Virus record (IMG/VR): IMGVR_UViG_3300009503_000027
Coordinates: 1 to 64,000 of that record
Source: a virus
DNA: 64,000 nt
Strand: one strand, 5' to 3'
Of this stretch, positions 36,177 to 61,189 are shown one piece after another. Positions within the stretch are counted from its first letter, which is position 1; each line of letters starts with the position of its first letter. Made by a program: the position numbers and the translations under genes. The notes below the pieces were generated by a model that worked only from the letters and a program-made list of their open reading frames with translations, made no database searches and was not told the origin of the DNA.

Positions 36177-37988
36177 GTGAAGGCCTTGCCTGCACGGCTA
36201 CGGCGACTACCGGCAGGCCGCTCCGCTACTGTCTTCCGGCCCGCGCCGCCTCCCGACACCAGTCCTGATGCTATGGCATCAGGAGGTGCTGTTGCTGTCG
36301 GCTGCTACCCAGGCCTGGGGGATATGTTAGTGGCCTTGCCGGTAGCGTACGCTCTAACAGAAGCAGGCCGCACCGCTACTATCCACATTGTTGAGCCGCA
36401 GGCAGACCATAGGCTAACACGCCCTACTTTGGCAGATCTTCCTGCTCTCCCGCTGGTTTGCCACGATTTTGGCGCAAAGAAGGTAACAGATGTCTGCCGC
36501 GGATGGCACCTTGATGGTAGTCCTTTAGTAGATGACGCCCTGGCCAGTGTAGGTATACACCGTGGCAGCACCCCGCCATATGCTGCCCTCCTAGAACCCC
36601 CCGATGCTGCTGCACGAGTACAAGAACTCGTTGGCAACCGTCCATATGTCCTGGTGGCAATTAGTGGGCATCATCGTAGCAAAGACAAAACATTGACGCC
36701 GGAGCAGATACACCGCATCGTTACAGTTTGTGCGCGGCGGGGCTTGCAGGCAGTGCTTGTGCACTCAGAGCAAGTGGAGGCGTCCTTGGAGGGGCTGCTG
36801 AATCTCTCCGACCAGACAACGATAACTGACCTCATTGCATTGGCAGCGAAAGCCACAGCCGTTGTGGCGCCCGACTGTGGTGTCCTGCACTTAGCAGGCG
36901 CCTATGACCGGCCACTTCTGGGCATCCTAGGCACGACTGTCGCACCGCGACGCCTGCCACCATATGTCCCGCATGTATACCTACGGGGTAGGACTGCTGC
37001 TGATGTATCACCGGACAACATTGAGCGTGGCCTACGGCGGATACTAGATGCCGCCATGCTGATGCCGGTGTGGGCGGTGATACCGGCCTGGCCGTGTGGC
37101 GTCGTGGCAACGGCCCAACGGGTGGCCGAGCCAGTCGGGGGCCGCGTCTGTGACATGGATGAAGTACCGAAGGAGGCCCTTGCCATCGCAGAAGCGCACG
37201 ATGCTCACCTAGTACGTTGGCAGAAATGGCTAGCGCGGCCCGGCGCGACGCTGGTATCCGTCCACGCCGGGGGGCCAGAAATCGCCACTGGCTGGCCCGC
37301 AGCCGTGCGCGGCGTAGGCCTACAGAAGGCCTGGGCTACGATGGGTATCAGCGTAGAGATGGTGCCATTGCCTGCCTGGTGGCCCCCCATAGAGCCCCGC
37401 GCTATACCACAAGGTCAAGTTATCGGCTGGCATGGAATGATACACAAGGCCAAACGCCTAGATACGTTGGTGGCAGCTTTCCGGGAAGTGCGTGCCCACA
37501 TGCCAGGGGCACGGCTACTGCTAGTTGGTTCGCAGCCGCCCTTCGCAGCAAAGGAAGCAGATGAACTAGCAGCGTCGCTGAGCAAGGAGCCGGGCGTTGA
37601 CTTAAAATATCGCCGCGCCTGGTCGGAGAAGGACATACGGGCGGCACTGGCCGAGGCAGATGTGCTAGCCTATACAGATGGTGGTGACCGCGAACAATCT
37701 GCCGCGGCATCCGATGCAACGGGATTGTCGCGGCCTATTATTGTGGGAACAGGGCGTCGGTATGCGGATTTAGCCCCGTGGGGGTGGCAAGTACGCCCCG
37801 AGTCCAGCGAGATCGCCCGCGCTATCATACGAATACTCGCCGATCCGACGGAATATGCCCGCCTATCAGTGCGTGCCTGGCAGGCGGCTTCCTATCGGCG
37901 GCCCGACCTGATAGGTAGACGCCTAGTGGCCCTGGCACGGCAGGCCTGGCTAGACAGGAGCGGAGATTCCGTCAATGACAGCCGATGA
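36177..37988 (+). CDS. Fused GT9-like + GT4-like glycosyltransferase, 603 aa
   Basis: GTG start at 36177 with AGGAGG upstream. Residues about 38-290 are a GT9-like domain (VGCYPGLGDMLVALPVAYAL; VAPDCGVLHLAGAYDRPLLG at 230-249). Residues about 355-590 are a GT4-like GT-B domain (IGWHGMIHKAKRLDTLVAAF, ARLLLVGSQPPF, DVLAYTDGGDREQSAAASDA). A two-domain enzyme could add two different sugars in sequence. First gene of the cassette; ends inside the methyltransferase gene. Confidence 0.75.
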   Translation: MKALPARLRRLPAGRSATVFRPAPPPDTSPDAMASGGAVAVGCYPGLGDMLVALPVAYALTEAGRTATIHIVEPQADHRLTRPTLADLPALPLVCHDFGAKKVTDVCRGWHLDGSPLVDDALASVGIHRGSTPPYAALLEPPDAAARVQELVGNRPYVLVAISGHHRSKDKTLTPEQIHRIVTVCARRGLQAVLVHSEQVEASLEGLLNLSDQTTITDLIALAAKATAVVAPDCGVLHLAGAYDRPLLGILGTTVAPRRLPPYVPHVYLRGRTAADVSPDNIERGLRRILDAAMLMPVWAVIPAWPCGVVATAQRVAEPVGGRVCDMDEVPKEALAIAEAHDAHLVRWQKWLARPGATLVSVHAGGPEIATGWPAAVRGVGLQKAWATMGISVEMVPLPAWWPPIEPRAIPQGQVIGWHGMIHKAKRLDTLVAAFREVRAHMPGARLLLVGSQPPFAAKEADELAASLSKEPGVDLKYRRAWSEKDIRAALAEADVLAYTDGGDREQSAAASDATGLSRPIIVGTGRRYADLAPWGWQVRPESSEIARAIIRILADPTEYARLSVRAWQAASYRRPDLIGRRLVALARQAWLDRSGDSVNDSR

Positions 37989-38634
37989 ACTACTAAAGCA
38001 GCTCTGGCGAGATTGGACACAGGGCATGCCACTGGTGGCAGCATGGCGATTACCCATTGCCACGGCTCCGGAGGATATGTTGCTGTTGTATGAAGCAGCG
38101 GCATCTGCCACCCTCCCAGAGGGGCATATCCTCGAAGTCGGCACCGGCTTGGCCGTCAGTACACTTGCCCTTGCGCGAGGCAATGCCGCACGCAGGCGCG
38201 GGGAGATGGTACTGACGTTGGACACCCTTGTTGAGGCCCGCAAAACTGCCCTAGCCGGAGCAGCCTGCGCACTTTTAGCTATTCACGCGACTGGACGATA
38301 CGGCATTGTATACATGCAAGGTGATACGGCGCATCTGCGCTGGTTAATTGGAGAGCGTAACCGGCGCTTCCGGATAGCATTCATAGATGGCGACCATACA
38401 TACGATGGCCTGGCTAATGACCTGGCTATTGTTGCCCCATTGATGACCAGTGGCGGCGTGATATTCGTGCATGACACTGGTGAGTGGGAAAGGTGGGCAG
38501 ATAAGGAACCAGGATGCTGCCGCTTGTGGAGATCCCTGAGGGAGGCAGGAATGTATGCTGCCCCCGATGGTCGCATTTGGAAGCCCATTGACGTTTCAGC
38601 AGCAATGGGCCGGATGGACCTGATGTCGGAATAG
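37975..38634 (+). CDS. Class I SAM-dependent methyltransferase
   Basis: 219 aa. SAM-binding motif I ILEVGTGLAVST (about 51-62) and the Methyltransf_24 signature FIDGDHTYDGLANDLAIVAP (about 137-156), then GGVIFVHDTGEW. Family members often O-methylate sugars or hydroxylated side chains. It sits between two sugar-enzyme genes, which suggests methyl capping of a glycan. Confidence 0.75.
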   Translation: MTADELLKQLWRDWTQGMPLVAAWRLPIATAPEDMLLLYEAAASATLPEGHILEVGTGLAVSTLALARGNAARRRGEMVLTLDTLVEARKTALAGAACALLAIHATGRYGIVYMQGDTAHLRWLIGERNRRFRIAFIDGDHTYDGLANDLAIVAPLMTSGGVIFVHDTGEWERWADKEPGCCRLWRSLREAGMYAAPDGRIWKPIDVSAAMGRMDLMSE

Positions 38635-38638
38635 AGGA

Positions 38639-38667
38639 TTATCTGCCCCCCGCAATGGGTGTAATAT
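38639..38667 (+). promoter_or_regulatory. Possible promoter before the epimerase-like gene
   Basis: TTATCT, 17-bp spacer, TAATAT (38662-38667), followed by a good SD (GGGAGGA) 7 nt before ATG 38706. This is the only sizeable gap within the cassette. Confidence 0.4.
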
Positions 38668-38705
38668 CAACAGAGCATCATACCACTCCTTGGGAGGAAT
38701 AGAAG

Positions 38706-39755
38706 ATGCTTCACTTAATAATTGACGCCAACAACTGCCTCGGGCGCCACCTGATACCCAACTTATTGGGCTATGGCGAGCACATCATTATCTGGGACAG
38801 CCGCATAACACAGCAAGCACAGGAAAGCCTGCGCATTCTCCCTGGTATCAGGGGCATATATACTGCCCCCATAATTCCCTGCGCTGCAACTGGAGCTACA
38901 TGGCGAGAGCATGGGGAGGATCTGCCACCATTCGCAGGGGTAGATGTGCTATGGTATCTTGCCGCCAGCACTAGCTCCATACCACAGCCAGAAGGCCCGT
39001 CTGAAGCCGCGGATCCCGCCATGCAGGGGACATCCCAGTTCGCCCTCACAGCATTGCAAACTGTGTGGCAGATTGTAGAAATCGCCCTCAACAACAATAT
39101 CCCTAGGATAATCTTCTTCTCGTCAGATGCCGTCTATGGTTCTGCCACCTGCGCAACAGAAGAAGATCGGTTGCGGCCTATGTCGGTATATGGCGCAGTT
39201 GCAGCAGGCAGCGAAATGATACTCCACGCGGCAGCTAGCTACGGCCTCGATGTCACCATATTGCGGCTTGGCAATGTTATAGGCCTGCCACTGCGATACA
39301 AAGGAGAAACGGAACTCCTTGCCCCCGGCATCCTTGGGAGCATCATAGAACAGATACGCCAACATCCTGACCATATTACAATCCGCAACGATGGTACTCC
39401 TCTGAAAAACTACATACATGTGACTGAGGTAGTGGAGGCAGTAATGTATGCCCGCCACGGAGCAAGGTTCAACAATCCTGAGATCTACAACGTTGGCCGG
39501 CCCGATACTGTCAACATCCGGGAAGTGGTGGGGCTTTTCCAGGACATAACAGGCTTGACACCATACGTGCAGTACGGTAGCCAGCCGTACGATTGGCCGG
39601 GCGAACCTTACGAGATAGGATTGGATAACGCTAAGCTGCTCAGTCTTGGCTGGAAGCCACGCTTCAAGAGCAGTACCGGGGCAGTACGCTATGCGATCCA
39701 GGAGTGGTGGCGCATTGAAGGCCGTGATCTTATGCAGCGCGCAAGCAACACATAG
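38706..39755 (+). CDS. NAD-dependent epimerase/dehydratase-like protein, motifs altered
   Basis: 349 aa, extended short-chain dehydrogenase fold (sugar-nucleotide epimerase family). The fold is clear: FFSSDAVYG, the Y162 strand, IRNDGTPLKNYIHVTEVVEA and the C-terminal substrate domain. However, the Rossmann glycine loop is DANNCLGRH instead of TGGAGFIGS, and the catalytic Y-x3-K reads Y162-G-A-V-A, so the Lys is missing. It may bind but not turn over a nucleotide sugar, or use altered chemistry. Confidence 0.75.
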   Translation: MLHLIIDANNCLGRHLIPNLLGYGEHIIIWDSRITQQAQESLRILPGIRGIYTAPIIPCAATGATWREHGEDLPPFAGVDVLWYLAASTSSIPQPEGPSEAADPAMQGTSQFALTALQTVWQIVEIALNNNIPRIIFFSSDAVYGSATCATEEDRLRPMSVYGAVAAGSEMILHAAASYGLDVTILRLGNVIGLPLRYKGETELLAPGILGSIIEQIRQHPDHITIRNDGTPLKNYIHVTEVVEAVMYARHGARFNNPEIYNVGRPDTVNIREVVGLFQDITGLTPYVQYGSQPYDWPGEPYEIGLDNAKLLSLGWKPRFKSSTGAVRYAIQEWWRIEGRDLMQRASNT

Positions 39756-40338
39756 GCTGCTAGCAGAGGTAGCAGGAGTGCCCCTCATAGATTGGCTGTT
39801 GGCCTCCTTGCCGCTGGATAGGAGCAAGCCATGGGGTTGCGAGGCTATTGTGCTTATAGCTGGAAGTGAGTGCACAGAGGTACAGAAATATATTGCCGCC
39901 CACCACGATAGAACGCCCTTTAAGGAAGTGCCCATCAAGGTGCAATACTCAGCAGGCACGAAAGCGGAACAGCTATTGTCGGTACGTGAGGAAGTACTGG
40001 GCACAACGGCACTAATCAATAGCGACGTACTGGCCGAGTTTTCGTGGCATGATTTGTGGCAATTCCATACCAGGAACAAGAATATAATTACCAGTGTCAC
40101 TTGCCGCCACACAGACACAGGCATATACCTGCTAGAGCCGCACTTCCTGGAATATCTTGCCAGGGGCAACAACGATTTCGACCTCGCGGCTTCGCGACTT
40201 TGCATTGCATTCCACAAGTGTGACCAATACATTGACCTGAGTGACCCCGATGGACTTTCTATGCTTGGGCAATATATCGCAGAAGCTATCCATATAGGAG
40301 GTCAACAGGGCAGCGAGGAGCCATGTATACCAAGGTGA
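39715..40338 (+). CDS. Sugar-phosphate nucleotidyltransferase-like protein
   Basis: 207 aa, TTG start at 39715 with AGGAG upstream. N-terminal MKAVILCSAQATHRL and GVPLIDWLLASLPL follow the pattern of glucose/heptose-1-phosphate nucleotidyltransferases. The GG-x-GTRL triphosphate loop and the PKPL lysine are absent. A middle GTTALINSDVLAEF segment matches the metal-binding strand, with Asp present. Probably a divergent or inactive family member. The start is in the 3' end of the epimerase-like gene, so translation is coupled. Confidence 0.6.
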   Translation: MKAVILCSAQATHRLLAEVAGVPLIDWLLASLPLDRSKPWGCEAIVLIAGSECTEVQKYIAAHHDRTPFKEVPIKVQYSAGTKAEQLLSVREEVLGTTALINSDVLAEFSWHDLWQFHTRNKNIITSVTCRHTDTGIYLLEPHFLEYLARGNNDFDLAASRLCIAFHKCDQYIDLSDPDGLSMLGQYIAEAIHIGGQQGSEEPCIPR

Positions 40339-41276
40339 AGCTACGCTACAAGGGGCAGGTTAAAGAAGTCTTCTGCGAAGTACAGAAGACGTGGCGGGAT
40401 ACTGTTTTGGCCTTACCATCGGATTATGTTGCCGCCCGCACGGTAGCTATCAAGCGCGACGGCGGCCTAGGCGATATTGTTATGCTAACGGCGGCAATCC
40501 ATCGCCTAGTGGAACTATATCCCCACTTGGCCGTGGATGTCTACACGAGCGAAGCGTTTATACCGCTCTTGAAGACAGACCCATACATCATGGACGTCCG
40601 GCCCATGAACGAACTGAACAAGTGGGCCTACGATATAGTCCTGAATTGCGTCGGCTTAGTAGAGCGTTCGCGGCACGATACTACTATAGACAGGGTCACG
40701 CTTTTCTCGATGAAGATCTGTGGAGAACCGCCTTCAGAGGGCCCGCTTGTGTTCTTGCCGCCGTACGAAACCGTTGCGGAGGCAGTTCAGCCATTGTTAG
40801 AGATGCAAGAATATCGCGTAGGGATTGCCCCCTGGGCGGCACGCGTGCACAATGACTGGCCCCATACACAGGCACTAGTAGATACTCTGCGCGCCAATGG
40901 GATAACTCCATACCTGATACACAACAATGCACAAAGGATGGCCACAATCGAAGGCGCCATACCGGTGACGCTAGATCTCATCTCTCTTGCCCATTTTCTT
41001 GGGCATCTTAACGTATTGGTGGCAGTAGACTCCGGCGTCCTGCATCTCGCAGCGGCCAATGGCTACAAGCAGCCCTACATCATAGGCCTCTTCGGCATGG
41101 TACACCCACGTCTCCGTATCCGCTGGTACCACAACATAGTAGGCTTGGCAGATGAAAGTCTACAATGCTTCCCATGTAACATGGCACCACAATGTAGTCT
41201 GCCGTCGCCATGTATGGTGAATTTGCGGCCCCAGCAGATCGCTCCAATGATCCTACAAAGGCGTGCAAGATATTAA
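40323..41276 (+). CDS. GT9-family glycosyltransferase (heptosyltransferase-like)
   Basis: 317 aa. IKRDGGLGDIVMLTAAIHRL (43-62) and VAVDSGVLHLAAANG (about 235-250) are the two GT9 signatures. The C-terminus has Cys/Pro-rich QCFPCNMAPQC, echoing the Cys-rich end of the 19543 enzyme. Last gene on the plus strand. It would transfer heptose or a related sugar from a nucleotide donor. Confidence 0.82.
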   Translation: MYTKVKLRYKGQVKEVFCEVQKTWRDTVLALPSDYVAARTVAIKRDGGLGDIVMLTAAIHRLVELYPHLAVDVYTSEAFIPLLKTDPYIMDVRPMNELNKWAYDIVLNCVGLVERSRHDTTIDRVTLFSMKICGEPPSEGPLVFLPPYETVAEAVQPLLEMQEYRVGIAPWAARVHNDWPHTQALVDTLRANGITPYLIHNNAQRMATIEGAIPVTLDLISLAHFLGHLNVLVAVDSGVLHLAAANGYKQPYIIGLFGMVHPRLRIRWYHNIVGLADESLQCFPCNMAPQCSLPSPCMVNLRPQQIAPMILQRRARY

Positions 41277-41370: not shown

Positions 41371-41566
41371 TAAGGCGTTCATATTCTGGATATTTTTCGG
41401 GCCAGGCAGGCAAAACTGCCTCCTCAAAGTAGGAGCACCGCTTTCCGGTAAAAATGTAGCAAGGATGCCCCCAAACGCAGCTCCTGCCAACCCAATTGGC
41501 ACACTCCTCGCGCACTAGCTGCCCTATTTTCATAGTTCTTGGGAAGGATTTCCTTATTTTAGCCAT
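41351..41566 (-). CDS. Cysteine-rich small protein, 71 aa
   Basis: ATG 41566 (MAKIRKSFPRT), overlapping the end of the upstream gene. GGAGGGT lies about 9 nt upstream. Four cysteines in CANWVGRSCVWGHPCYIFTG and RCSYF suggest a small zinc site. Last gene of the minus-strand arm and convergent with the cassette. No named family. Confidence 0.6.
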   Translation of the reverse strand: MAKIRKSFPRTMKIGQLVREECANWVGRSCVWGHPCYIFTGKRCSYFEEAVLPAWPEKYPEYERLIKGQSP

Positions 41567-42225
41567 TCTTGCCACCCTCCCCAGGGGCGTCCTATTACCT
41601 TGCGGCCAGCCGCATGGGCAATCAATGCCCATAGCGTTGGCCCCCAAGTACTTTGTAGCTCAATGTACATCTTCCCGCTACAGATATGGCTGATGATATC
41701 TTCGAAAGCCACAGGCCGGACTATACTCGCTTGGGGGCAAATCCGTACCATCTTGATATGGGGCGTTTCTCCAAGCTGGTCAGTAAGTTCAACTAGGAGG
41801 ACATTATTGCCCCCATAAGTGGAAGGTTGCCTACAGATTTCCTGTTCAAGCCGGAAGTCAACAGGGCGATTGGGTTCCACTACCATGACAAGGTCGTATT
41901 CCGGTGTCGGGGCCGATATGTTGTCCAGTTTAGGGAAGCCCACGCGCACACTTTCCCAAAGGGAGCCTAGGCCGCCTCCCGTCTTGCCTAGCAGCCAGCC
42001 CATCTCGGAATATGTACAAAAGCGTAGGATAGCACCGCTCTCCACAGCCCGTAAGAGACTCTCCCAGTCGGGGACAAGGTCCTGATGAGGCCGCCCAATG
42101 AAGGGCACCTCCCAGGCATAGATAGCGGGCCATATGATATCGTATTCCTCTGGGCATTCAGGAGGTTGCCAAGCACCTTCTATGCCTAGATATGTTGCAA
42201 CCAACATCCCGAATGGTGTGCTCAC
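41554..42225 (-). CDS. Hypothetical protein, 223 aa, possible GT-like C-terminus
   Basis: GTG start at 42225 with AGGAGCGG upstream. N-terminal Trp/Pro-rich region and a central Rossmann-like pattern. The C-terminal IELQSTWGPTLWALIAHAAG followed by RKVIGRP resembles the donor-binding half of GT-B glycosyltransferases. I cannot exclude a different role. If it is a glycosyltransferase it would add to the cassette across the convergent junction. Confidence 0.45.
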   Translation of the reverse strand: MSTPFGMLVATYLGIEGAWQPPECPEEYDIIWPAIYAWEVPFIGRPHQDLVPDWESLLRAVESGAILRFCTYSEMGWLLGKTGGGLGSLWESVRVGFPKLDNISAPTPEYDLVMVVEPNRPVDFRLEQEICRQPSTYGGNNVLLVELTDQLGETPHIKMVRICPQASIVRPVAFEDIISHICSGKMYIELQSTWGPTLWALIAHAAGRKVIGRPWGGWQEWLK

Positions 42226-42234
42226 AGTCCGCTC

Positions 42235-42857: not shown

Positions 42858-43579
42858 GAGGTCCTCTGTGGTCGGCGGGGCCGCTCGAATTCCACTTCGG
42901 GGAGGCCTAAGGCGCGGCGGCGCCGGTTAACCGTATGTTCATATTTTTTGTCTAGGGATGCCCACCAAAGATCAAAGCCCAGCTCGTATCCCTCAGGCCA
43001 TGAAAGATAAAGCTGGTTGGCCGCATTAGCCCAGGCCCTGACCATCTGGGCAGCAGCAAAGGCCATAACAATAGCATATGCCCGTCCAGCTTTCTGGAAC
43101 AGATCATCTGCCTCAGCGGGCCATAGACAGCGCACAACATCTTCCACCCGTGCTTGGGTGCGGTCCCGATACAGGGCATAGTAGTCACCGGCCGTTTCGG
43201 CAGGTGGTGATACTTGCCACAACCAGCTCCGCAGACGCTCCCGTATAATATGCACGTAAGGTATCGCCAGGGTGTCATATGCTACTGCGATCTGCCCGAC
43301 GACCGCATTACGGACAAAGTACCAGCGGTCACATCCTGGTAATAAGGTGACAATTGCCCCCAGCCCGGTTTGGTATTTGTCTATAATGGACGTAAAGAAT
43401 TCCAAGAGGGCAGTAACTACCTTATCTGCCCGGCGATACTCTATCTGCACGTTACATACCTCCACGCCACCAGGCGTCAGGGCTACTGCCACCGCATAGT
43501 CATGGGCTGGCCAGCAGCCCAAGAAGCTCTGGGGCACTTCCTTAGGCAACTGAATTGTCACGAAATTAGGTGCATTCAT
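42836..43579 (-). CDS. Hypothetical protein, 247 aa, possibly RNase H-like
   Basis: ATG 43579 (MNAPNFVTIQ) lies within the 3' end of the phosphatase gene. Strand-helix order (SFLGCWPAHDYAVAVALTPG, VVTALLEFFTSII, LGAIVTLLPGC) recalls a RuvC/RNase H fold, as in phage Holliday-junction resolvase-like proteins. The expected acidic catalytic residues are not in their usual places. Function uncertain. Confidence 0.5.
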   Translation of the reverse strand: MNAPNFVTIQLPKEVPQSFLGCWPAHDYAVAVALTPGGVEVCNVQIEYRRADKVVTALLEFFTSIIDKYQTGLGAIVTLLPGCDRWYFVRNAVVGQIAVAYDTLAIPYVHIIRERLRSWLWQVSPPAETAGDYYALYRDRTQARVEDVVRCLWPAEADDLFQKAGRAYAIVMAFAAAQMVRAWANAANQLYLSWPEGYELGFDLWWASLDKKYEHTVNRRRRALGLPEVEFERPRRPQRTSWIHKNS

Positions 43580-44141
43580 TGATAATTCTCTCCGTGATTG
43601 CTTCCCAGTTGCCGTAAGGCCAGCCCACATAGAGAGATGCCCGCACACCTGCCTGCAACCCCGCCAGTATATCAGAAGGAGTATCGCCTAGCATATAGGA
43701 ATGGCGGATGTCGACTTCATTTGCCTGGGAGAGGATAAGCCCTGGGGCGGGCTTCCTACATGGGCAGCCTGCTGCCGCCCCGTGGGGGCAGACTAAGAAC
43801 TTCATGCGCACCTGGCCACGCTGAGTGATGAGCTGCTGGATATAGCTAAAATCTGCCCCCATGGGCAAGTAGGCGAACTCCATATCGCAATTCCCTAGGA
43901 TGGATTCTGCCACCGCCAGATTGACATCCAAAACACCTGCAAGCGCAGAAGCATCCCGCGCTACTATTGGCTGGTTGGTGACGCAGATGAGCCGCAAGCC
44001 AGCCTGGTCAAGCTGCCGGAGAGCATTGACAGCATTGAGCCAGATACGTATCTGGGAAGGGTCAAGGTAGTACTGCCCCCGCGGTAGCGGCTCCAGCACT
44101 GGCCCATCTCGGTCGAAAAATACTGCCCTACTCAAGAGCAT
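43566..44141 (-). CDS. GmhB-like HAD phosphatase (heptose-bisphosphate type)
   Basis: 191 aa. All four HAD motifs are present: FFDRDG (Asp10, Asp12), VTNQ, CRKP lysine and LGDTPSD. The CPH...CPC zinc knuckle (about 128-138) is specific to the GmhB/histidinol-phosphatase branch. GmhB removes the 7-phosphate from D-glycero-D-manno-heptose 1,7-bisphosphate during nucleotide-heptose synthesis. Unlike other sugar genes here its motifs are intact. It sits among recombination genes, overlapping RusA. Substrate inferred from family. Confidence 0.78.
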   Translation of the reverse strand: MLLSRAVFFDRDGPVLEPLPRGQYYLDPSQIRIWLNAVNALRQLDQAGLRLICVTNQPIVARDASALAGVLDVNLAVAESILGNCDMEFAYLPMGADFSYIQQLITQRGQVRMKFLVCPHGAAAGCPCRKPAPGLILSQANEVDIRHSYMLGDTPSDILAGLQAGVRASLYVGWPYGNWEAITERIINECT

Positions 44142-44517
44142 GGACAGACACCTCTACACCTGCCGGTGCCTCGTAGACCTTTGATACATGTAGCACCGCT
44201 ATCTGAGAATCATCACGATAGGCGATACCCGTCAGGGCATCTTCAACGGGCTTGGCAAGGTTACCTGCATCCGGGCGCCGGATATGCCACTTGCCGGGGC
44301 GCATCTTCTTAGGCCGGGGCATATGGAACCGGAGTTCGAGATGTACTGCCCCCGTCGGGAAGGCAGGGTGCGGCTTAGGTACCATTGCCTCGGCCACCAT
44401 CCGTATGACTGTCTGCCAAGCACAAACATCCTCCGCACGCACGTGGAACACCCTACCATGCGCGATGACGCGCTTCCGGCGCTCAGGCTTCGGCTGGCCC
44501 GGCACAAAAAAACTCAT
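44128..44517 (-). CDS. rusA: RusA-family Holliday junction resolvase
   Basis: 129 aa from ATG 44517 (MSFFVPGQPKPER). RPDAGNLAKPVEDALTGIAY with DDSQI is the RusA signature carrying the metal-binding Asp residues. The dimeric enzyme cuts four-way junctions in recombination or packaging intermediates. Both ends overlap neighbours. Confidence 0.9.
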   Translation of the reverse strand: MSFFVPGQPKPERRKRVIAHGRVFHVRAEDVCAWQTVIRMVAEAMVPKPHPAFPTGAVHLELRFHMPRPKKMRPGKWHIRRPDAGNLAKPVEDALTGIAYRDDSQIAVLHVSKVYEAPAGVEVSVHALE

Positions 44518-44698
44518 CTGCGCAGTCCGGACACACATCCTTGACTATATCCCCATCACGCTCATATGTCCAGCCCATCGCCTCCATTTGCCACTCCGCA
44601 TCATTGAACGAGTGGCAATCCTCTATATACTCCTCGCGTCCACAATAGTCGCACTTGGCAAGGTACAATCCATGCTCAAGTTGCTCAATCACGGCCAT
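44483..44698 (-). CDS. Zinc-binding mini-protein, copy 1
   Basis: 71 aa. CDYCGREEYIEDC and VCPDC form a zinc site, with GWTYERDGD between. It is a paralogue of the next upstream gene (44699-44902): same spacing of Cys pairs and same MGWTYE motif. It lies 1 nt from that gene. Likely a small regulatory or host-takeover factor; function unknown. Confidence 0.65.
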   Translation of the reverse strand: MAVIEQLEHGLYLAKCDYCGREEYIEDCHSFNDAEWQMEAMGWTYERDGDIVKDVCPDCADEFFCAGPAEA

Positions 44699-48293: not shown

Positions 48294-49309
48294 GGTGGCA
48301 ACTCCCCCGTCTCCAGAAGCCGCCGGATGTCCTGGTAGTACTTATGTATGAGCACCAGTACACTGGACTCCCCTTGGCATTTCTTGCCCAACAGGTTGTA
48401 CCAACTGCCCGACTTGGTCAGCAAGCGCCTCTTCTCAAACAGCCGCATGAGCATAACCGCATCCGTGATGAACGGGGCGCGCATCACGCTCTCCTTATCT
48501 TCCGGGTCAGGCACATCGGCGAAGTATATGGCATACATGCCCTTTCGCCCCATGGCGGGCATGTACTTGCACCTATCACACCGCCACTCCACGACAACCC
48601 CCCTAACTACCTCTGCGTCATCCTCTTTCGCCTTGATAGCGTATCCGCCTTGGGCGAGGCGTACCTGCAGTATGAGGGATGAATTGAACCTTTGCGCGTG
48701 CCCCCCAGGGAGTACATATGCTCCCGTCTGCGGGTCGCGGTAGGTCTGTTGGATAATCACCAGGGCTATCTTGGCCTTGGCGATGATATGTGTGACACGC
48801 CGGATCAAGGCATTGAGCGCTTTCGGGACATGGGCATAGCTTGTAGATTCCAGCATGGATCTGCCCGCGTCGTGGTGGCTAACGAGCGCCGTCGGGCCAT
48901 CAATAACTATAAGGCTGACGGGTGGATTAACGGTAGCCGCCTCATAGACCACGTCCGCCGCAGCCTCGATCGTCTCCACGCTCTCCACGATACCAATCCT
49001 GTCAGGATTGACGCCCCAGGCCTGCACCCAAGGAGCCTGAAGACGCTTCTCGCAATCTATCCAGATGGCCTCTGCCTCTGGATTGGCCGCAAGAGCGTTA
49101 AGGACGAGGCTTGTCTTCCCGGTATCGGGGGGCCCGTAGATGACGGTTATACGCCCGCGGGGAATGCCCCCGAAGCTCTCGTCAAGGGTAACCAGTCCCC
49201 AGGAGAGGAACTCCAGCGGGGGCAGATCCGCCATCCGCTTGACAACTCCACGCTTTATCAGATCATCCAGCGGCAGTGTTGTCACCTTCTCTGACTGAGG
49301 ACTGCCCAA
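48272..49309 (-). CDS. RecA/RadA-type recombinase
   Basis: 345 aa. Walker A GPPDTGKTS (59-67), a Walker B strand VSLIVIDGPT, and IIQQTYRD as the sensor strand. The Cys pair in EWRCDRCKYMP is unusual for RecA and suggests a small zinc insertion. ATP-driven strand-exchange protein for repair or replication. Its end overlaps the nuclease start. Confidence 0.8.
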   Translation of the reverse strand: MGSPQSEKVTTLPLDDLIKRGVVKRMADLPPLEFLSWGLVTLDESFGGIPRGRITVIYGPPDTGKTSLVLNALAANPEAEAIWIDCEKRLQAPWVQAWGVNPDRIGIVESVETIEAAADVVYEAATVNPPVSLIVIDGPTALVSHHDAGRSMLESTSYAHVPKALNALIRRVTHIIAKAKIALVIIQQTYRDPQTGAYVLPGGHAQRFNSSLILQVRLAQGGYAIKAKEDDAEVVRGVVVEWRCDRCKYMPAMGRKGMYAIYFADVPDPEDKESVMRAPFITDAVMLMRLFEKRRLLTKSGSWYNLLGKKCQGESSVLVLIHKYYQDIRRLLETGELPPWAEEHA

Positions 49310-49547
49310 TCTGCCACCGTTCCCCGGTCTTCGGATCCTCCACGCTGAACGTCACCGTAAATCCCAAGGCCCCGGCGATAACGCACAGTTCTTGCAGCCG
49401 GATGAGGGTAGGCTTGCGTACCAGCTTGCTTAGGCGCGACCGGGTGAGCCCGGTCCGGCGGCAAAGTTCGTCGTGGCCCATCTGCTGCACGCGCTCATGG
49501 CGTAGCAGGCCCTCGGCTAGCTGAGCCGTCTTTGTTCGATACTGCAT
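49263..49547 (-). CDS. XRE-family helix-turn-helix regulator
   Basis: 94 aa, ATG 49547 with GGAGGAAC upstream. HDELCRRTGLTRSRLSKLVRK is a helix-turn-helix. The C-terminus adds an acidic tail (VTFSVEDPKTGERW). It starts inside the primase-helicase gene and ends in RecA, so it is co-transcribed. Possibly controls early genes. Confidence 0.7.
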   Translation of the reverse strand: MQYRTKTAQLAEGLLRHERVQQMGHDELCRRTGLTRSRLSKLVRKPTLIRLQELCVIAGALGFTVTFSVEDPKTGERWQIGQSSVREGDNTAAG

Positions 49548-51648
49548 AATCGTTCCTCCGGCCTTCTGCCAGGCCCCGCGCCTGACGCTCGAGGCGCTGG
49601 TCCTCAATGATGTACTGCGCTTCCAGTTCTACGCCAACGGGCAACGGCCCGGGTTCCACCCAATAGACAGCAGGCGTATAGAGCATAGACTGGGCGGGGG
49701 CGAGGGGCCACTCTTCCCCGTAGCGGTTCTTGGTGATCTTTGCTACGATCTCCAGTGGCTGCCCGGGCTTAGGATACCGCCTCCGGAGGGTGACCTCGTA
49801 ATCCGTTTGCGCCTCGCCCCCGAACATCGCCCCTGCCTCGCCGATATCGGCTATGCGGCTAGAAGCGCGATGGCGGGCCACCTGGCGCAGGACTACCACA
49901 AAGGTGTTGAGGACGCCCGCCATCGTCTGGGCATCCTTAATGACCTCCATCATATGCATGAAGCTTTCCTTCTGCTGAGACCTTGCCAGTTCGAGGTAGT
50001 CCACGAAGACGAAGTCTACTTTCCGGCCGATATGATCAACCTCTATTTGCCGGACTGCCGCCTCAACCTCCTGAACCGTTGTTGGGCCGTGCAGGAAATA
50101 GACATTCGTGCGCATCATATCGGCCACCAAGTCATGCGTTACCGTCCAGGCTTCCTCATTCTCTCTCAGTTTAGATAGTACCCGCGCCGGCGTCGTACAA
50201 ACATCTTTTTCTACGTACCCTGCACGGGCGGCAATATTGATTGCAGCCCGCAGGATGATATCGGCCGGCGAAGGCTCGAAGCCGACGACGACTATGCCCG
50301 GCGGAGATGCAGTCCCCAGTAGGTTGAGCACCAACTGCACCATGAGCGCCGTTTTGCCGATGCCTGCCCGGCCGACAATATGCATGATCTTCCCAGGGAT
50401 CAAGTCGATATGTTCATCAAGTACAGGGAAGCCGAGGGAGTAAGGGGCGCGGGTGGCAAAGCTATCAACAATTGCTTCCAGGCTCTGCCAAGCGTCATCA
50501 ACGCTATATACCGGGAGGCTGCTTCTGCCACGGGCAGTGAGAAATTGCCGGGCTACAACTGGCTCGATCTTCCACGCCTCGGCTACGATTTGTTCTATCT
50601 GGCCCCGTAGCGCGGGACTCGCAGAGGCATAGACATGCCGAAGGGAGCGTTCGGCTTCCTCTCTAGGGCGCTCTAGTAAGGACCTGGTCTGCCACAGTTC
50701 GAGTGGCATGACGGAGGATATTTGCTCTTTAAGCGTCCCTGCCACCAACGACTCGTTCGCGTCCTTCTCCCGCAAGACGAGCACAGACACCGGCCCGGAG
50801 TACTCCTTGCGGAGCACAGCTGCATTACGATGGGCCTTTTCAATGCCTTCACCGGTTGTATCGGGGCAGAGGATGATATGCGGGTCTTTGAAGATGTGAA
50901 GGATTGCCGCAACCTGGGAGACACCCAGGAAGCCCATGTGGGCAACCGCCGCTACCCCGCACTGCCAGAGTGAGATCGCATCATAGGGCCCCTCGACCAG
51001 GTACAGCTTGCCATCATAACGAAGCCGGGCTTGCGCCAGGCCCCAGACGGCTTCGCTACGCTTGAAATACTCCGTTGCTTTAGTTTCATACTTAGGACCG
51101 TCTTCGGGCGACTTGCCACGGGACAGGCGGTAAGCCGCAGCCCGACGAAGGTCATCATTCCAGTTGTGGAACTGCCACCCAATGTGGTGACCGTACCTGT
51201 CCGTCACGGGCAGGACAATCTGCCCGGTGCGGAAGACACCTACATGATAGGCCTTCAGCGCATCGTCAGAAATCCCACGCGAACGCAGGTACTCGAGAAC
51301 CGCGTTGTTCTCCCAAAGGGCGGCATGCCATTGGTGTGCCGCCGCCTCCAGCTGCTGGTACCGATTGAACCGCCGCTGGGCCTCTTCTGCATTCAGCTCA
51401 ACTCCCACGGTGGGGGCAAGCTGGACCAAGGCCTCATAAGGCGAGATGCCCCGGACATGGGCTACCCAGTCGAAGACGTCACCTGACTTGCCGCAGCCGA
51501 AACAATAGAAATGGTCCTGATAGATATGGCAGGATGGTGTCTTTTCCGTATGGAATGGGCAGAGGACCTTATCACGCTTTAGCTCATGAGACTGGGCAAC
51601 AACCTGCCGCAAGTCGAGACGTAAACGTACCTCATCCCAAGGAAGCAT
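49495..51648 (-). CDS. Primase-helicase
   Basis: 717 aa, ATG 51648 with AGGAGG. N-terminal CHC2-type zinc site CPFH...CFGC (Cys30, His33, Cys49, Cys52). A TOPRIM segment (LYLVEGPYDAISLWQ, IILCPDTTGEGIEKAH) synthesises primers. The DnaB-like helicase half has VGRAGIGKTALMVQLV as Walker A, and RQVARHRASSRIADIGEAG at the arginine-finger region. Single-polypeptide layout like T7 gp4. It unwinds and primes the replication fork. Confidence 0.9.
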   Translation of the reverse strand: MLPWDEVRLRLDLRQVVAQSHELKRDKVLCPFHTEKTPSCHIYQDHFYCFGCGKSGDVFDWVAHVRGISPYEALVQLAPTVGVELNAEEAQRRFNRYQQLEAAAHQWHAALWENNAVLEYLRSRGISDDALKAYHVGVFRTGQIVLPVTDRYGHHIGWQFHNWNDDLRRAAAYRLSRGKSPEDGPKYETKATEYFKRSEAVWGLAQARLRYDGKLYLVEGPYDAISLWQCGVAAVAHMGFLGVSQVAAILHIFKDPHIILCPDTTGEGIEKAHRNAAVLRKEYSGPVSVLVLREKDANESLVAGTLKEQISSVMPLELWQTRSLLERPREEAERSLRHVYASASPALRGQIEQIVAEAWKIEPVVARQFLTARGRSSLPVYSVDDAWQSLEAIVDSFATRAPYSLGFPVLDEHIDLIPGKIMHIVGRAGIGKTALMVQLVLNLLGTASPPGIVVVGFEPSPADIILRAAINIAARAGYVEKDVCTTPARVLSKLRENEEAWTVTHDLVADMMRTNVYFLHGPTTVQEVEAAVRQIEVDHIGRKVDFVFVDYLELARSQQKESFMHMMEVIKDAQTMAGVLNTFVVVLRQVARHRASSRIADIGEAGAMFGGEAQTDYEVTLRRRYPKPGQPLEIVAKITKNRYGEEWPLAPAQSMLYTPAVYWVEPGPLPVGVELEAQYIIEDQRLERQARGLAEGRRNDYAVSNKDGSASRGPATP

Positions 51649-51679
51649 GTAGTGCCTCCTGCTTCAATTCACTAGATAC

Positions 51680-51696
51680 GGAGGCCGGGGGCCTCC
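51680..51696 (-). promoter_or_regulatory. Hairpin before the primase gene
   Basis: GGAGGCC-GGG-GGCCTCC lies in the gap between the small membrane-protein gene and primase-helicase. No U-tract, so it is more likely a processing or attenuation element than a terminator. Confidence 0.45.
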
Positions 51697-51712
51697 AGGT
51701 GAGCGAGCAGCC

Positions 51713-52030: not shown

Positions 52031-52048
52031 CAATCACCTCGATGATCT

Positions 52049-52076
52049 ATTATACCCCGGAGCGCGGGGAACACAA
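52049..52076 (-). promoter_or_regulatory. Promoter with a palindromic spacer
   Basis: TTGTGT (52076-52071), 16-bp spacer TCCCCGCGCTCCGGGG, TATAAT (52054-52049). The spacer is itself a CCCCG/CGGGG inverted repeat. It drives the holin-like and primase-helicase genes. Confidence 0.7.
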
Positions 52077-52083
52077 CACGTAT

Positions 52084-52590
52084 TTACAGCCGCTCCTCCG
52101 GATCTAGGGCGCCCTGGCCACAGAGGGCGGCCCGTTCGCCTTCGGCACGCCCCAGTAGGTACATCATGGCGGCATAATACTGGGATATACAGACTGCTAC
52201 CTCGGCCATCTCTAGCTCTTCCTCTGTCACCTCGGTGTCATTCCGGTGCGAGGCCCACAAGAGGAAGGGCCACATGATTACATTCAGTTCGGGGCAATTC
52301 TCCAGGACAGGATTAATGGCCTTTTGCAGCTTCTCCAGGGGCAGTCCACCCCATGAGTCACGGATAGCTTCCATGACAGCTTCGGGGCTATAGCCCTCCA
52401 GCGCCAGGCGTGCATCGAACTCCTCTATGCTGCGGCGGGTTGCTTTCGCCCAACGCTCAGCGTAGGCCAGCGCACGCCGTGGCGGGCAAAACTGTACCCT
52501 CCTGAGCCACCGCTCCTCAACCCAAGTAGCCAAGGAAGCCCCTACCACAACTATACCCATGCCTATCAACATACCCCAAAGAAGCATCAT
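52084..52590 (-). CDS. Hypothetical membrane-anchored protein, 168 aa
   Basis: N-terminal transmembrane helix (about residues 3-22, LLWGMLIGMGIVVVGASLAT), then a soluble helical domain. Co-translated (ATGA overlap) with the next gene upstream. Function unknown; part of a run of small membrane proteins (52084-53463). Confidence 0.5.
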   Translation of the reverse strand: MMLLWGMLIGMGIVVVGASLATWVEERWLRRVQFCPPRRALAYAERWAKATRRSIEEFDARLALEGYSPEAVMEAIRDSWGGLPLEKLQKAINPVLENCPELNVIMWPFLLWASHRNDTEVTEEELEMAEVAVCISQYYAAMMYLLGRAEGERAALCGQGALDPEERL

Positions 52591-52994
52591 TGCCCAGTCT
52601 CCTCGTCGTGGAAGTCCACGCCATCTACACTCGGGCGCAATAGCTCCCCTGCAAAGAACGCAGAGGTACGCAGCCCATCCCTACATACAGGCGCGACTGG
52701 CGTGTAATAAAGCCTAGGATGGGTTCGCATGGCATACCGGCAATGGCAAAGCTTTACTAGCACGACACCGGTCTTGCCGGTCAGGTAGACGTCTGAGTGC
52801 ACCGGGTCCCAGCCATCGGACAGCCGGCCAGAGACAACCAGTACGGGATGCGACTCGCCACCTGCCTCCACATACCGAAGCATTATTATATCAGGCCGAG
52901 CATACTTATCAACCGCACCATAGACGAGGACAAATAAGAGCCAAGGTGCTGCCAGGAGCGCAACTATGCCTACTCTACGTGCCCGCTCACTCAT
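52587..52994 (-). CDS. Hypothetical membrane-anchored protein, 135 aa
   Basis: One N-terminal helix (about residues 8-27, GIVALLAAPWLLFVLVYGAV), then an outer-domain-like part with two Cys (KLCHCRY) that could form a disulfide or metal site. No family recognised. Confidence 0.5.
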   Translation of the reverse strand: MSERARRVGIVALLAAPWLLFVLVYGAVDKYARPDIIMLRYVEAGGESHPVLVVSGRLSDGWDPVHSDVYLTGKTGVVLVKLCHCRYAMRTHPRLYYTPVAPVCRDGLRTSAFFAGELLRPSVDGVDFHDEETGQ

Positions 52995-53006
52995 CTGCCC
53001 TCGCCC

Positions 53007-53252
53007 CTACACGGACGTATTAGAGCGCTCACGCGCGCGCTCTTCTGCTTGGAGGCTATTCCAGAGTGCTATGCGCAAGTCAGCTACCTGACGCTTCCGT
53101 TCTACATTCTCGCGCTCTAGCTCCCCGACACGCGCCGCTAGACGTGAGACCTGGGCAATATATTGTGCCTCCTGGGAGCGCCAGGCGAACACTAAAAGCA
53201 GCATCCCCCAGATAATGCCACCGATGAACGCAAGAACGTATCCATAGATCAC
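53007..53252 (-). CDS. Spanin-like protein, 81 aa
   Basis: N-terminal membrane helix (about residues 5-25, YVLAFIGGIIWGMLLLVFAW), then a coiled coil (QVSRLAARVGELERENVERK). Layout of an inner-membrane spanin subunit; no lipobox partner identified. Confidence 0.5.
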   Translation of the reverse strand: MIYGYVLAFIGGIIWGMLLLVFAWRSQEAQYIAQVSRLAARVGELERENVERKRQVADLRIALWNSLQAEERARERSNTSV

Positions 53253-53265
53253 TTGCCAATCACCT

Positions 53266-53463
53266 CTACTTGGCAGGGCTCCACCAATGAAAGACGTCCA
53301 CTACTAGGCAGTATAGCAGCAGGAACCAAATGGCTAACACCACCGTGGAGATAATGCCCACAGTGAGCACCCACAAAACTGCGCCAACGATAGCAGCCAG
53401 GGCCCCGAGGACTGTCTCGAGGAAGATGACGATCTTGCCCAACCAGGGCCATATACCTTTCAT
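53266..53463 (-). CDS. Small membrane protein, 65 aa
   Basis: Two long hydrophobic helices (about residues 9-33 and 35-58) with a charged N-terminus and a WWSPAK end. Together with the neighbouring membrane proteins it forms a possible lysis or membrane-modification set. No family recognised. Confidence 0.55.
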   Translation of the reverse strand: MKGIWPWLGKIVIFLETVLGALAAIVGAVLWVLTVGIISTVVLAIWFLLLYCLVVDVFHWWSPAK

Positions 53464-54395
53464 TGTAGGTCCCAGAGATCCGAGGTGCTCTCTCTAGTCC
53501 ATTGTACCCACTGGTCTTCGTCTTTACACAGGTCGCGGCAAAAATATTTCGTCAACTGGCAGCCGAAGAGAGGCCCGTAATCTGCTACACGGACGCAGTT
53601 TTCGGGCCGTATATGTTGCTTCCAGAGAAGGTAGCGGGGAGCAAGAGTGCCCCGACGCGCATGACAGACAGCTATCAGGTCGGGCATCCCTAGGCCACTA
53701 TAAGTGCCCGCCTGGACAACCTGTACAGGAATGATAGCCCCACAAGCCTGGGGGGCAGTCGTTATCCATGCCCAGGGGTCATCGCGACTACTAATGTAAT
53801 CAACTGCCCGCCGGGCAATTTCATCCAGGGGGGCATTGCGCCAGTCGGTGACACGTAGACGCAGAAAGAAGCCCGCTATCCACTCGTCGGGTACGTCTCC
53901 CCACCAGGGACCTTCTAGGAGACGTACAGCAGCAAACATCCGCCGCATCATCTCCGGCCATAAGGCATGCCTATGCGATAGGCAGTCGAGACCATACCGG
54001 CGCTGCATCTCCTTGACAACATCCTGCCACGTCCGGGGGGCAGTAATCGTATCCCCTGCATCCTGCCCCGCCTCCGCCACCACCTCAAAGGCATCTGCAT
54101 ATCCAAGAAATGCAGAACCTTCCCCCCGCCGGTACTCGGTATAACGCTCATCTACATCTACTATACACAATGCCCGCTGGATGACATTACGCACCTCGTC
54201 GGGGCCGAGCCCTAGCTTGTTGTGCCAGAACACTAGGCGAACGTCCCGCTCGGTAGGCGGAACGAAGGTGTTATAGTACCTGCCCACCGTCTCCTGCCAA
54301 GCCGCAAGAAGCGGGTTAATCCTCAGCTTGACGGCGGCACTACGCTTCTTCTTCGGCGCTTCCTCTACTTCGTGCCACCCGGGGATGTCTTCCAT
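53460..54395 (-). CDS. Hypothetical protein, 311 aa
   Basis: Helical, Trp-rich soluble protein. A Lys/Arg-rich N-terminal region (APKKKRSAAVKLRI), a QDVVKEMQRRYGLDCLSH segment and a C-terminal Cys cluster (FGCQLTKYFCRDLC). Overlaps the SWIM-domain gene by 31 nt. May be a replication or DNA-binding accessory factor. Confidence 0.5.
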   Translation of the reverse strand: MEDIPGWHEVEEAPKKKRSAAVKLRINPLLAAWQETVGRYYNTFVPPTERDVRLVFWHNKLGLGPDEVRNVIQRALCIVDVDERYTEYRRGEGSAFLGYADAFEVVAEAGQDAGDTITAPRTWQDVVKEMQRRYGLDCLSHRHALWPEMMRRMFAAVRLLEGPWWGDVPDEWIAGFFLRLRVTDWRNAPLDEIARRAVDYISSRDDPWAWITTAPQACGAIIPVQVVQAGTYSGLGMPDLIAVCHARRGTLAPRYLLWKQHIRPENCVRVADYGPLFGCQLTKYFCRDLCKDEDQWVQWTRESTSDLWDLQ

Positions 54396-56221
54396 AAGTA
54401 TCCCTCGCTGAAAATCGCCGCGTCACCTACAGAGTCTACCCATTCGCGGAGCTCCCAAAACGTGTCATCGTAATCATCACAATCCGCCAGTTCGCACAAA
54501 TGTTCGACCGCGGCGGATATCGTCCACGGGCCGAGATCCTTCGTCGCGGCCTTCTCGGCCCAATAGTGTATCAGCGTGCGGACCGAAGCACTATGACCTG
54601 CATAATACGGTACCCGGTCTTGCCAATCCTCTTCGGGGGCCCACTTCGCGCTGCGTCGAACTAATGTTCGACGCGCGGCGAGTATATACTTGACCATGCG
54701 ATATACGTGCCGGCACTTCCCACCGAAGGCGCGGCAATGACACGCACCGGCGGCACCAAGACGTAGGTAGCAATGACGAGGTAGGTAGCGTACCCTCTGG
54801 TACATCAGTAGGTCCGCAAAGGGGCAGCCCCAATCCGGTAAGCTGCCATCATCATCCAGTACCCACTTAGCCATGAACCGGGCCTCTGCCAACGGTAGGG
54901 GTTGACGCCCAACGGAACGGTGAGGCCCGGCCGTTGCGCCCCCCGGTGCCCCTCCCAACCCCCGGCGGCATGTACTTACCAACCCCTCTAAACATACGGG
55001 GACGTCAGTCCCCGATAGTGCACGATCACTTGTGTGCTCTAGGACTGTTTTTTCTGTTCTATTATTACCCACGTCCCGGTGGGCTCCCACGCGACTATAA
55101 TTAACCCCTAAACTACTCTTTAAATACGTATTGGTCAATACAGTATAGTAGGTCTTTTTTGGTTGCTGTCGTGATTGGGAGACCAAAGAAAAGAGCGGGT
55201 TCCATTGCCACCGGGCGTATTCCTCCTCACGTTCTGCCAGGGCCAGCCGCAAGGGCATGTCCGTTGCGATATGGAAGAGCATGTTCTGTACGCGGCACAT
55301 GTAGGGGGAGGAGATGTCGACTGCCGCCCGTGGCAAGCCTATCCCGTAGGCGGTCCGTTCCTTCGGGAGGGGTATCGGCTGGTATTGCCTCTTAGGCCTG
55401 TGCGGGAAGGCATCGTAGCGGAGTTTGCGGCAGCGGGCGGCAAGAACCTGAGCAGGCCGGTGGCCGCTCAGCGCGGGGCACTCGCCGGAAGATGGGGCGG
55501 GGGAGGTTCCCGCCACGGAGGACCCACGGGAGGGGGATGGGTCCTGAACGACGCGTTGCCGGCGCCGCCGCCGCAACTCCAAAGATTCCTTCTTCATCTT
55601 ACGAGCCTGCTCTTTGACCTCCTGGGGGAGGTTCTCTAGCCGGCTCCTGCGCCTTTCATACCAACCCCGGTCGTAAAGGGGCTTTGGGCCCTTGTTGATC
55701 CAGTAGGCGTACCGCTTGCGCCCCGTGATGGGGTTGGTGACGCGTTCCCTATGCAGATAGCCCCGGTTGGTGAGCTTGAGCAGTATAAGCCGGGCCGCCT
55801 TGACTGGTATGTTAAGGTAGTCTGCCACCCGGGCGGCAGTACAGTAATTCTTCTTGCTAAGGAAGCGAACCGATATGTAGACTGCCGCCGTGCAGCCGCG
55901 TAGCCCCGGTGGCCGGGTGGGCTTCTTCCGGCGCCTGTAGAAACGTGCACGCCAGTTGAGACACACAGGCTCTTGTAAAGGAGCGTCGCATTCTACCTGT
56001 TCCGGCGGCAAGACCTCATACTGTGTCTTCTGGGCATGTATGCGCTTAGTGCCGCTGATGACACCTTGCTTCTTTAGACGCTTGAAGGCGTATTCTGCCT
56101 CCGACTTCGAGACACCTAGGTACCGCGCACAGTCCCGTATGGAGGGCTGGTCGTGCAGCAACGTGAATAGAAGCTGATAAACTTGCGCATCAATACCCTG
56201 TAGGTAGATTTTATCGCTCAC
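54365..56221 (-). CDS. Winged-helix and SWIM zinc-finger protein, 618 aa
   Basis: N-terminal winged helix (IRDCARYLGVSKSEAEYAF, about 28-46), a second one (AARVADYLNIPVKAARLILL, about 128-147), a basic Arg-rich linker (to 250), a long disordered/Pro-rich middle, then CHCRAFGGKCRH (about 508-519), the C-x-C-x(n)-C-x-H pattern of a SWIM domain. Proteins with this order suggest a replication initiator or DNA-binding control factor. Function inferred. Confidence 0.55.
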   Translation of the reverse strand: MSDKIYLQGIDAQVYQLLFTLLHDQPSIRDCARYLGVSKSEAEYAFKRLKKQGVISGTKRIHAQKTQYEVLPPEQVECDAPLQEPVCLNWRARFYRRRKKPTRPPGLRGCTAAVYISVRFLSKKNYCTAARVADYLNIPVKAARLILLKLTNRGYLHRERVTNPITGRKRYAYWINKGPKPLYDRGWYERRRSRLENLPQEVKEQARKMKKESLELRRRRRQRVVQDPSPSRGSSVAGTSPAPSSGECPALSGHRPAQVLAARCRKLRYDAFPHRPKRQYQPIPLPKERTAYGIGLPRAAVDISSPYMCRVQNMLFHIATDMPLRLALAEREEEYARWQWNPLFSLVSQSRQQPKKTYYTVLTNTYLKSSLGVNYSRVGAHRDVGNNRTEKTVLEHTSDRALSGTDVPVCLEGLVSTCRRGLGGAPGGATAGPHRSVGRQPLPLAEARFMAKWVLDDDGSLPDWGCPFADLLMYQRVRYLPRHCYLRLGAAGACHCRAFGGKCRHVYRMVKYILAARRTLVRRSAKWAPEEDWQDRVPYYAGHSASVRTLIHYWAEKAATKDLGPWTISAAVEHLCELADCDDYDDTFWELREWVDSVGDAAIFSEGYLWKTSPGGTK

Positions 56222-56224
56222 ATC

Positions 56225-56689
56225 CTACCGCCCCTCAAGGAAGGCTTGTTGTTCCTCCGGCGGCAATGCCAAGAACCGCCGGATTATCTCGCGTAGCAAG
56301 TCCGTTGTATGGACTGGCCCCGCGTCTATGAATTCTATCATAGTGCCGAGTTCTATGCAAGTACTTTTTTCTGGAATATTTTTGCCCTTCCAGTCGGCGC
56401 CCTTGACGAACACATCCGGCCGGAGGCGTCGTATAAGCTCAGTGGGCGTAGGCTCTTCGAAGATGATTACATCTGCCACGGCACGGTGGGCACTGAGGGC
56501 TGCTGCCCGCGCCTCTGCAGGGAGGCAAGCATACCACTTCAACCGGCGGGTGACTTCATCGCCATTGATGCCTACCAGGAGGTCATGCTCGGGATAAAGG
56601 GCACTAATCGTGCTTAGTAGCGCAAAGTGATGTGCGGTGGGCAATGCGAACACCCCGGTTGTAAGAACCCTTTTACGGCCTGTCATCAT
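56225..56689 (-). CDS. HldE C-terminal-like nucleotidyltransferase
   Basis: 154 aa from ATG 56689 (GGAG SD). Matches the RfaE/HldE C-terminal domain that makes ADP-heptose from heptose 1-phosphate: VLTTGVFALPTAHHFALL (the HxGH position reads T18-A-H-H), LLVGINGDEVTRRLK, IIFEEPTPTELIRRLRPDVF and VKGADWKGKNIPEKS. PPAT enzymes also begin this motif with Thr, but the Gly to His change is unusual. With GmhB and GT9 genes it implies heptose metabolism. Located downstream of a large inverted repeat. Confidence 0.78.
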   Translation of the reverse strand: MMTGRKRVLTTGVFALPTAHHFALLSTISALYPEHDLLVGINGDEVTRRLKWYACLPAEARAAALSAHRAVADVIIFEEPTPTELIRRLRPDVFVKGADWKGKNIPEKSTCIELGTMIEFIDAGPVHTTDLLREIIRRFLALPPEEQQAFLEGR

Positions 56690-61091: not shown

Positions 61092-61148
61092 TACTGTTGT
61101 GCTTTTCCCCTGTGCCTCTTGGTCATTAGGGCGCCCCTCATGCTGTTA

Positions 61149-61185: not shown

Positions 61186-61189
61186 AAGC

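Follow-up and report, generated by a model that had tools for sequence, protein, structure and literature searches.

The stretch of DNA analyzed here (64,000 bases, hereafter the window) corresponds to bases 1-64,000 of the 80,834-base virus record IMGVR_UViG_3300009503_000027, an 80.8-kb tailed-phage contig in which three glycosyltransferase genes of the GT9 family accompany several other genes related to sugar metabolism. Tailed-phage markers included terminase, portal, a capsid-type protein, primase-helicase, RecA-like, RusA and SSB proteins, D12 methyltransferases, a DnaN-like protein and a tyrosine recombinase. The genome is probably near-complete, since the same GC-rich tandem repeat (unit of approximately 23-26 bases) was found at both contig ends, namely at window positions 1-260 and at the end of L001, which belongs to the same phage. 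A preliminary description of this DNA had proposed that the phage both activates and transfers heptose, using a GmhB-like HAD phosphatase, an HldE C-terminal-type nucleotidyltransferase (NT) and three GT9 domains. The three GT9 domains were recovered with the Pfam profile PF01075 (curated cut-off of 22 bits), as follows:

19543-20457 (+), GT9-A: PF01075 36 bits; inside the head operon, between the capsid-proximal gene 19028-19471 and the head-completion gene
36177-37988 (+), GT9-GT4 fusion (GT9-B): PF01075 45 bits, PF13692 36 bits; opens the variable cassette that follows the tail genes
40323-41276 (+), GT9-C: PF01075 31 bits; closes the late operon and is the conserved anchor of the cassette

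The second of these genes does contain the GT9 domain previously noticed, but it is a fusion with a GT4 domain and not a GT9 protein alone. All three proteins carry both the N-terminal GD motif and the C-terminal D-x-G-x-x-H motif. GT9-C belongs to a single run of genes that follows the tail genes, on the virion-gene strand, with open reading frames (ORFs) that overlap or nearly touch. A promoter scan of the cassette returned 5 promoter-like sites, compared to 5.6 expected by chance.

Scans of IMG/VR proteins with the large terminase subunit (TerL), the major capsid protein (MCP) and GT9-A identified a near-identical second contig, 3300027863_000216 (99.96% over window 4731-24093), besides which the TerL scan returned distant terminases. 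The same scans with HAD, NT, GT9-B and GT9-C as queries gave no match, and the phages collection contained no GT9 relatives and only weak relatives of HAD and NT. A search for the tmRNA-like element of the window led to a related phage, IMGVR_UViG_3300028908_000001 (93.9 kb, hereafter G032), the one informative relative to which our statements on conservation refer. Its identities with the window phage were 56% for TerL, 61% for MCP, 48% for portal, 33-50% for tail proteins, 48% for the RecA-like protein and 49% for primase. GT9-A is 41.5% identical to G032 48707-49825, with the same gene order, and GT9-C is 46% identical to G032 71006-71968, at the same position. These values (42-46%) are close to those of the tail proteins, and both glycosyltransferases are thus kept in place together with virion genes in this relative.

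Between the GT9-GT4 fusion and GT9-C, which delimit a cassette (36177-41276), lie genes for a methyltransferase and an SDR as well as a possible NTP-transferase remnant. All three had been missed in the preliminary description, as had the GT4 half of the fusion. These features and a convergent neighbor are:

37975-38634 (+), class I methyltransferase (Methyltransf_24): PF13578 42 bits
38706-39755 (+), extended SDR with a sugar epimerase/dehydratase fold: PF01370 89 bits
about 39691-40338 (+), possible GlmU-like nucleotidyltransferase remnant, tentative: weak NCBIfam GlmU match, E 6e-4
41554-42225 (-), uncharacterized protein convergent to the cassette: 34.9% identity to G032 78011-78820; no Pfam match

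The SDR departs from its family at both signature motifs, with DANNCLG in place of GxxGxxG and YGAVA in place of YxxxK, the lysine being replaced by alanine; both glycines and the lysine were kept in 27 out of 27 references. From what is established on SDR chemistry, a protein that has lost the YxxxK lysine should have no ordinary dehydrogenase or epimerase activity. An assignment as HldD was rejected, based on 34 of the 275 bits required by TIGR02197 and on the loss of the active site. The putative remnant at 39691-40338 lacks the GGxGTR and PK motifs and had neither a Pfam match nor a clear cellular match. No support was obtained for reading the 39646 ORF as a GDP-heptose (HddC-type) transferase. 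For the 41554-42225 protein, we had the impression, and only that, of a GT-B-like C-terminus.

From the last tail gene to GT9-C, the cassette is not conserved in G032 and is replaced by other enzymes of the same kinds: an unrelated GT9, a separate GT4, an FkbM methyltransferase and a type I phosphodiesterase. The GT9-GT4 fusion has no homologue in that phage. The sugar genes of the window look long-resident rather than fresh debris, because their GC pattern across codon positions is that of the phage itself and plausible ribosome-binding sites precede several of them.

The other two enzymes of the proposed heptose pathway are encoded on the opposite strand, one of them next to a Holliday-junction resolvase gene:

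43566-44141 (-), HAD-IIIA phosphatase with zinc knuckle: TIGR01656 87.9 bits, cut-off of 84
44128-44538 (-), RusA Holliday-junction resolvase, neighbor of HAD in the early operon: PF05866 77 bits; 42% identity to G032 82406-83131
56225-56689 (-), HldE C-terminal-type NT with a degraded signature: TIGR02199 78 bits, cut-off of 181.5

The phosphatase shares with GmhB and the N-terminal domain of HisB (HAD-IIIA, TIGR01656) the motifs DxD, TNQ, CRKP and GD..D as well as the zinc ligands C-x-H-x5-C-x-C, and it keeps 13 of the 14 columns that are invariant in 27 references. The catalytic and zinc residues are therefore intact as had been described, but the name GmhB did not hold. Indeed, the protein scored 54.2 bits with the GmhB model TIGR00213 (cut-off of 149.6), 53.4 bits with hisB_Nterm (cut-off of 140) and 72 of 178 bits with PRK08942. 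As positive controls, Escherichia coli GmhB reached 337 bits with TIGR00213 and 286 with PRK08942, and E. coli HisB reached 281 with its own model. Compared to GmhB and HisB-N, the window protein carries an extra segment of approximately 25 residues and falls below every equivalog cut-off. It formed a long branch in our trees, none of which decided between GmhB and HisB, and grouping with HisB was not rejected by the approximately unbiased test (p = 0.447, and 0.481 with the relative added). As it scores equally as a histidinol phosphatase, the GmhB name could not be confirmed. Single-sequence AlphaFold models of HAD and NT had pLDDT values of 36 and 49 and were discarded.

The derivation of the NT from HldE C-terminal domains was confirmed, but its catalytic signature is degraded. 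The protein resembles the HldE C-terminal domain/HldC (TIGR02199) by its tree placement and by the VKGxDW and TPxxLIxxxxPD motifs, and it differs in the FD and HxGH motifs, reading GVFALPTAHH instead of GxFDxxHxGH. The D, H and G of this signature, and HxGH itself, were kept in 33 of 33 references. A further change turns LKGxxRP into LKWYAxLP. In a tree whose neighbors were HldE C-terminal domains (no other NT subfamily was deliberately included as an outgroup), the window and G032 proteins paired beside that of Dormiibacter (92/86). The G032 protein (12080-12559, 49% identity) retains HAGH. The TAHH change is thus confined to the lineage of the window phage, and the replacement of FD by FA is found in both phages. 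The idea that all the sugar-activation genes are undergoing recent decay was therefore half right only. The NT of the window phage has probably lost or changed its activity. Separately, a Bryobacterales metagenome-assembled genome (L209/L263, G006:C243:20761-21663) encodes an HldE C-terminal domain and a GmhB-like phosphatase naturally fused in one 384-aa frame.

Taken together, we give about even weight to the reading that these genes serve a virion-linked, late-expressed glycosylation module, and not heptose synthesis, in a tailed-phage lineage about which little is known. What we observed are homologies, gene order, strand, overlap, conservation in the relative, motif states and missing enzymes, from which virion glycosylation is a sensible inference. 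In such a module, the conserved core would consist of GT9-A, located in the head operon, and GT9-C, which follows the tail operon, and the glycan would be varied by the exchangeable cassette that separates GT9-C from the last tail gene. The enzymes would be made late, with the capsid and tail proteins, and would act on virion proteins, the presumed acceptors, by adding a short glycan and trimming or methylating it. The nucleotide sugars would most likely come from the host, since the phage is without a working activation pathway. HAD and NT are old, conserved phage genes of the early replication operon, and in this reading they do not form a heptose-activation pathway. Several points weigh against the module. 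None of the GT9 proteins reached the heptosyltransferase I, II or III equivalogs (TIGR02193, TIGR02195 and TIGR02201), scoring 23-45 bits against cut-offs of 134-185. The region behind the tail genes is also a site of lysogenic-conversion genes, in a phage that has a tyrosine recombinase, and the support from relatives is limited to a single informative one.

The leading rival, which we consider unlikely, is that the GT9 and GT4 enzymes alter the lipopolysaccharide (LPS) or another envelope glycan of the host, excluding superinfecting phages or changing serotype in lysogeny. The heptosyltransferases of LPS synthesis belong to GT9, the recombinase suggests a temperate phage, and O-antigen modification is the favored reading for the sugar genes of pelagimyophages (PMC7029224). 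However, GT9-A is locked in the head operon, GT9-C comes after the tail genes and has no obvious promoter of its own, and no flippase or membrane partner was noted nearby. The same location next to virion genes rather than replication genes argues against glycosylation of the phage DNA, for which hydroxymethylase, deaminase or TET-like base-modifying genes did not turn up in the ORFs searched either. Hypermodification of DNA by virus-encoded glycosyltransferases is a known phenomenon (Pyle 2024, as cited in PMC12619734) and the D12-type adenine methyltransferase genes show DNA modification by the window phage, but we regard this explanation as highly improbable.

Two further explanations concern HAD and NT. 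In the model of the preliminary description, GmhB and HldE-C activate a host-supplied heptose phosphate and the GT9 enzymes transfer heptose. It can draw on the intact residues of HAD, on the grouping of the NT with HldE-C together with the HxGH retained in the relative, and on cyanophage Sf-CH8, which encodes HldE-C along with GmhA, a dehydratase and glycosyltransferases. On the other side, a GmhA-type isomerase (PF13580) and a PfkB kinase (PF00294) were absent from the whole 80.8-kb contig, confirming over its full length what had been noted before, and E. coli GmhA and the HldE kinase as queries found nothing significant in the contig or in G032. The HldD 6-epimerase was absent too, and the sole SDR found has degraded motifs. 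Moreover, HAD and NT are located 12 kb apart in the early operon, away from the glycosyltransferases. Heptose activation by the phage is not supported, because HAD is equidistant from GmhB and HisB, the NT is degraded, the isomerase, kinase and 6-epimerase are missing and the GT9 proteins are below the heptosyltransferase cut-offs. The sugar-transfer half of the proposal is retained, given the GT9 motifs, the late operon and the conservation of two of the genes, but the model as a whole appears quite improbable. A somewhat better candidate, although still on the unlikely side and compatible with virion glycosylation, is that HAD removes phosphate from nucleic acids or nucleotides, in the manner of a polynucleotide 3'-phosphatase, as part of DNA processing together with RusA and SSB, and that the NT is unrelated to it. 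The ORFs of HAD and RusA share 14 bases, and a syntenic HAD homologue lies near RusA in G032 (28% identity). This homologue is without the last zinc cysteine; its best Pfam match was PNK3P (32 bits over a cut-off of 22) and its NCBIfam matches were mixed GmhB/HisB. The window protein itself reached only 15 bits with DNA-3'-Pase versus 88 with TIGR01656, and since E. coli GmhB scores 29 with the DNA-3'-Pase model, such matches are weak evidence.

Within the virion glycosylation model, the start of GT9-A deserves attention. Upstream of the first ATG, its frame remains open as far back as 19336 (window 19336-19543, +), and this extension is homologous to the protein of the relative, with an alignment score of 60 versus a maximum of 49 in 1000 shuffles and 36% identity over 44 residues. 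In both phages, the extension overlaps the preceding capsid-proximal head gene in a -1 relation. Based on the open, homologous frame and the shared overlap, a -1 frameshift might fuse GT9-A to the upstream protein, and the glycosyltransferase would then be built into or tethered to the capsid, glycosylating during assembly. We found no canonical slippery heptamer, the bias of codon-position differences was only weak, and a methionine aligned in both phages could be an ordinary GT9-A start, which counts against a fusion. We consider this scenario improbable.

Phage-encoded heptose-pathway genes have been reported previously, so that describing this combination as an undescribed system was an overstatement. 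Cyanophage SynMITS9220M01 was reported to have a heptose kinase, a phosphoheptose isomerase and a 6-epimerase (PMC7378029), and phage-borne heptose genes were also reported on a cave-pool contig (PMC11671562). Cyanophages Sf-CH8 and Sf-CH5 have heptose genes in their annotation and resemble the window phage in having an HldE-C-like NT, an NAD-dependent dehydratase, a methyltransferase and glycosyltransferases. Sf-CH8, Sf-CH5 and SynMITS9220M01 differ in that they possess an isomerase or a kinase, clustered genes and, for Sf-CH8, a canonical HPGH, whereas the window phage is without the isomerase and kinase steps and its degraded NT lies apart from the glycosyltransferases. Pelagimyophages carry rfaE and LPS-type sugar genes with glycosyltransferases beside tail-fiber genes (PMC7029224). 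Their enzymes are mostly GT8 and their genomes those of larger myophages, in contrast to the GT9 core genes of the window phage, one of which is inside the head operon. According to PMC11256854 (citing Freeman 2023), mycobacteriophages Che8 and Rita have glycosylated capsids and phage-encoded glycosyltransferases, as does Maravista by prediction. The likeness lies in phage-encoded glycosyltransferases thought or shown to act on virion proteins. The Maravista glycosyltransferases are near the 3' genome end, while GT9-A, with its predicted role in glycosylation, adjoins the capsid gene. Compared to the published phage heptose genes, the distinction is that GT9 genes are fixed within virion operons and are accompanied by degraded activation enzymes.

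Other features were observed in these genomes. A tmRNA-like RNA of 78-82 nt (tmRNA match of 57-62 bits) is present in three viral contigs, at window 61148-61225 (-; 78 nt), L333 6187-6268 (-) and L335 12955-13036 (-). It consists of the tRNA-like domain only (5' GGGG..UCGACG, a T-arm and one hairpin replacing the tag and pseudoknots), and its stems differ in sequence among the three contigs and still pair. We read it as carrying the G3-U70 alanine identity pair, and it may represent either a tmRNA mimic charged with alanine or the relic of an integration site. The window copy is located approximately 5 kb from the tyrosine recombinase. Its 3' end, used as a host probe, matched across many phyla and was uninformative. 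A DnaN-like sliding clamp at window 62574-63707 (-), identified by reading the sequence, was matched by cellular ORFs, its closest matches being Chloroflexota (29% identity). Along with the Dormiibacter affinity of the NT, this is suggestive, without being proof, of a Chloroflexota host. The window also encodes a caspase-like peptidase at 2931-3704 (-; PF00656 27 bits, cut-off of 21; GHG and DACH motifs) and three related D12-class DNA adenine methyltransferases (58381-59331, 59328-60212 and 61633-62550, -), all of which match a single G032 gene. Elsewhere in the same phage, L001 contains an Mg-chelatase/ComM-type ATPase gene at 5266-6702 (-) and a pair encoding a MoxR-like AAA and a VWA/metallopeptidase-like (DUF2201) protein at 10020-11102 (+) and 11083-12558 (+).

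The family names GmhB, HldE and epimerase overstate function here, as several of the proteins are without the catalytic residues that these names imply, which is relevant to lists of phage auxiliary metabolic genes. If the virion glycosylation model is right, GT9 enzymes would be fixed in the head and tail gene blocks with a swappable sugar cassette between them, and this arrangement would offer a testable model for the self-glycosylation of particles by non-mycobacterial phages.

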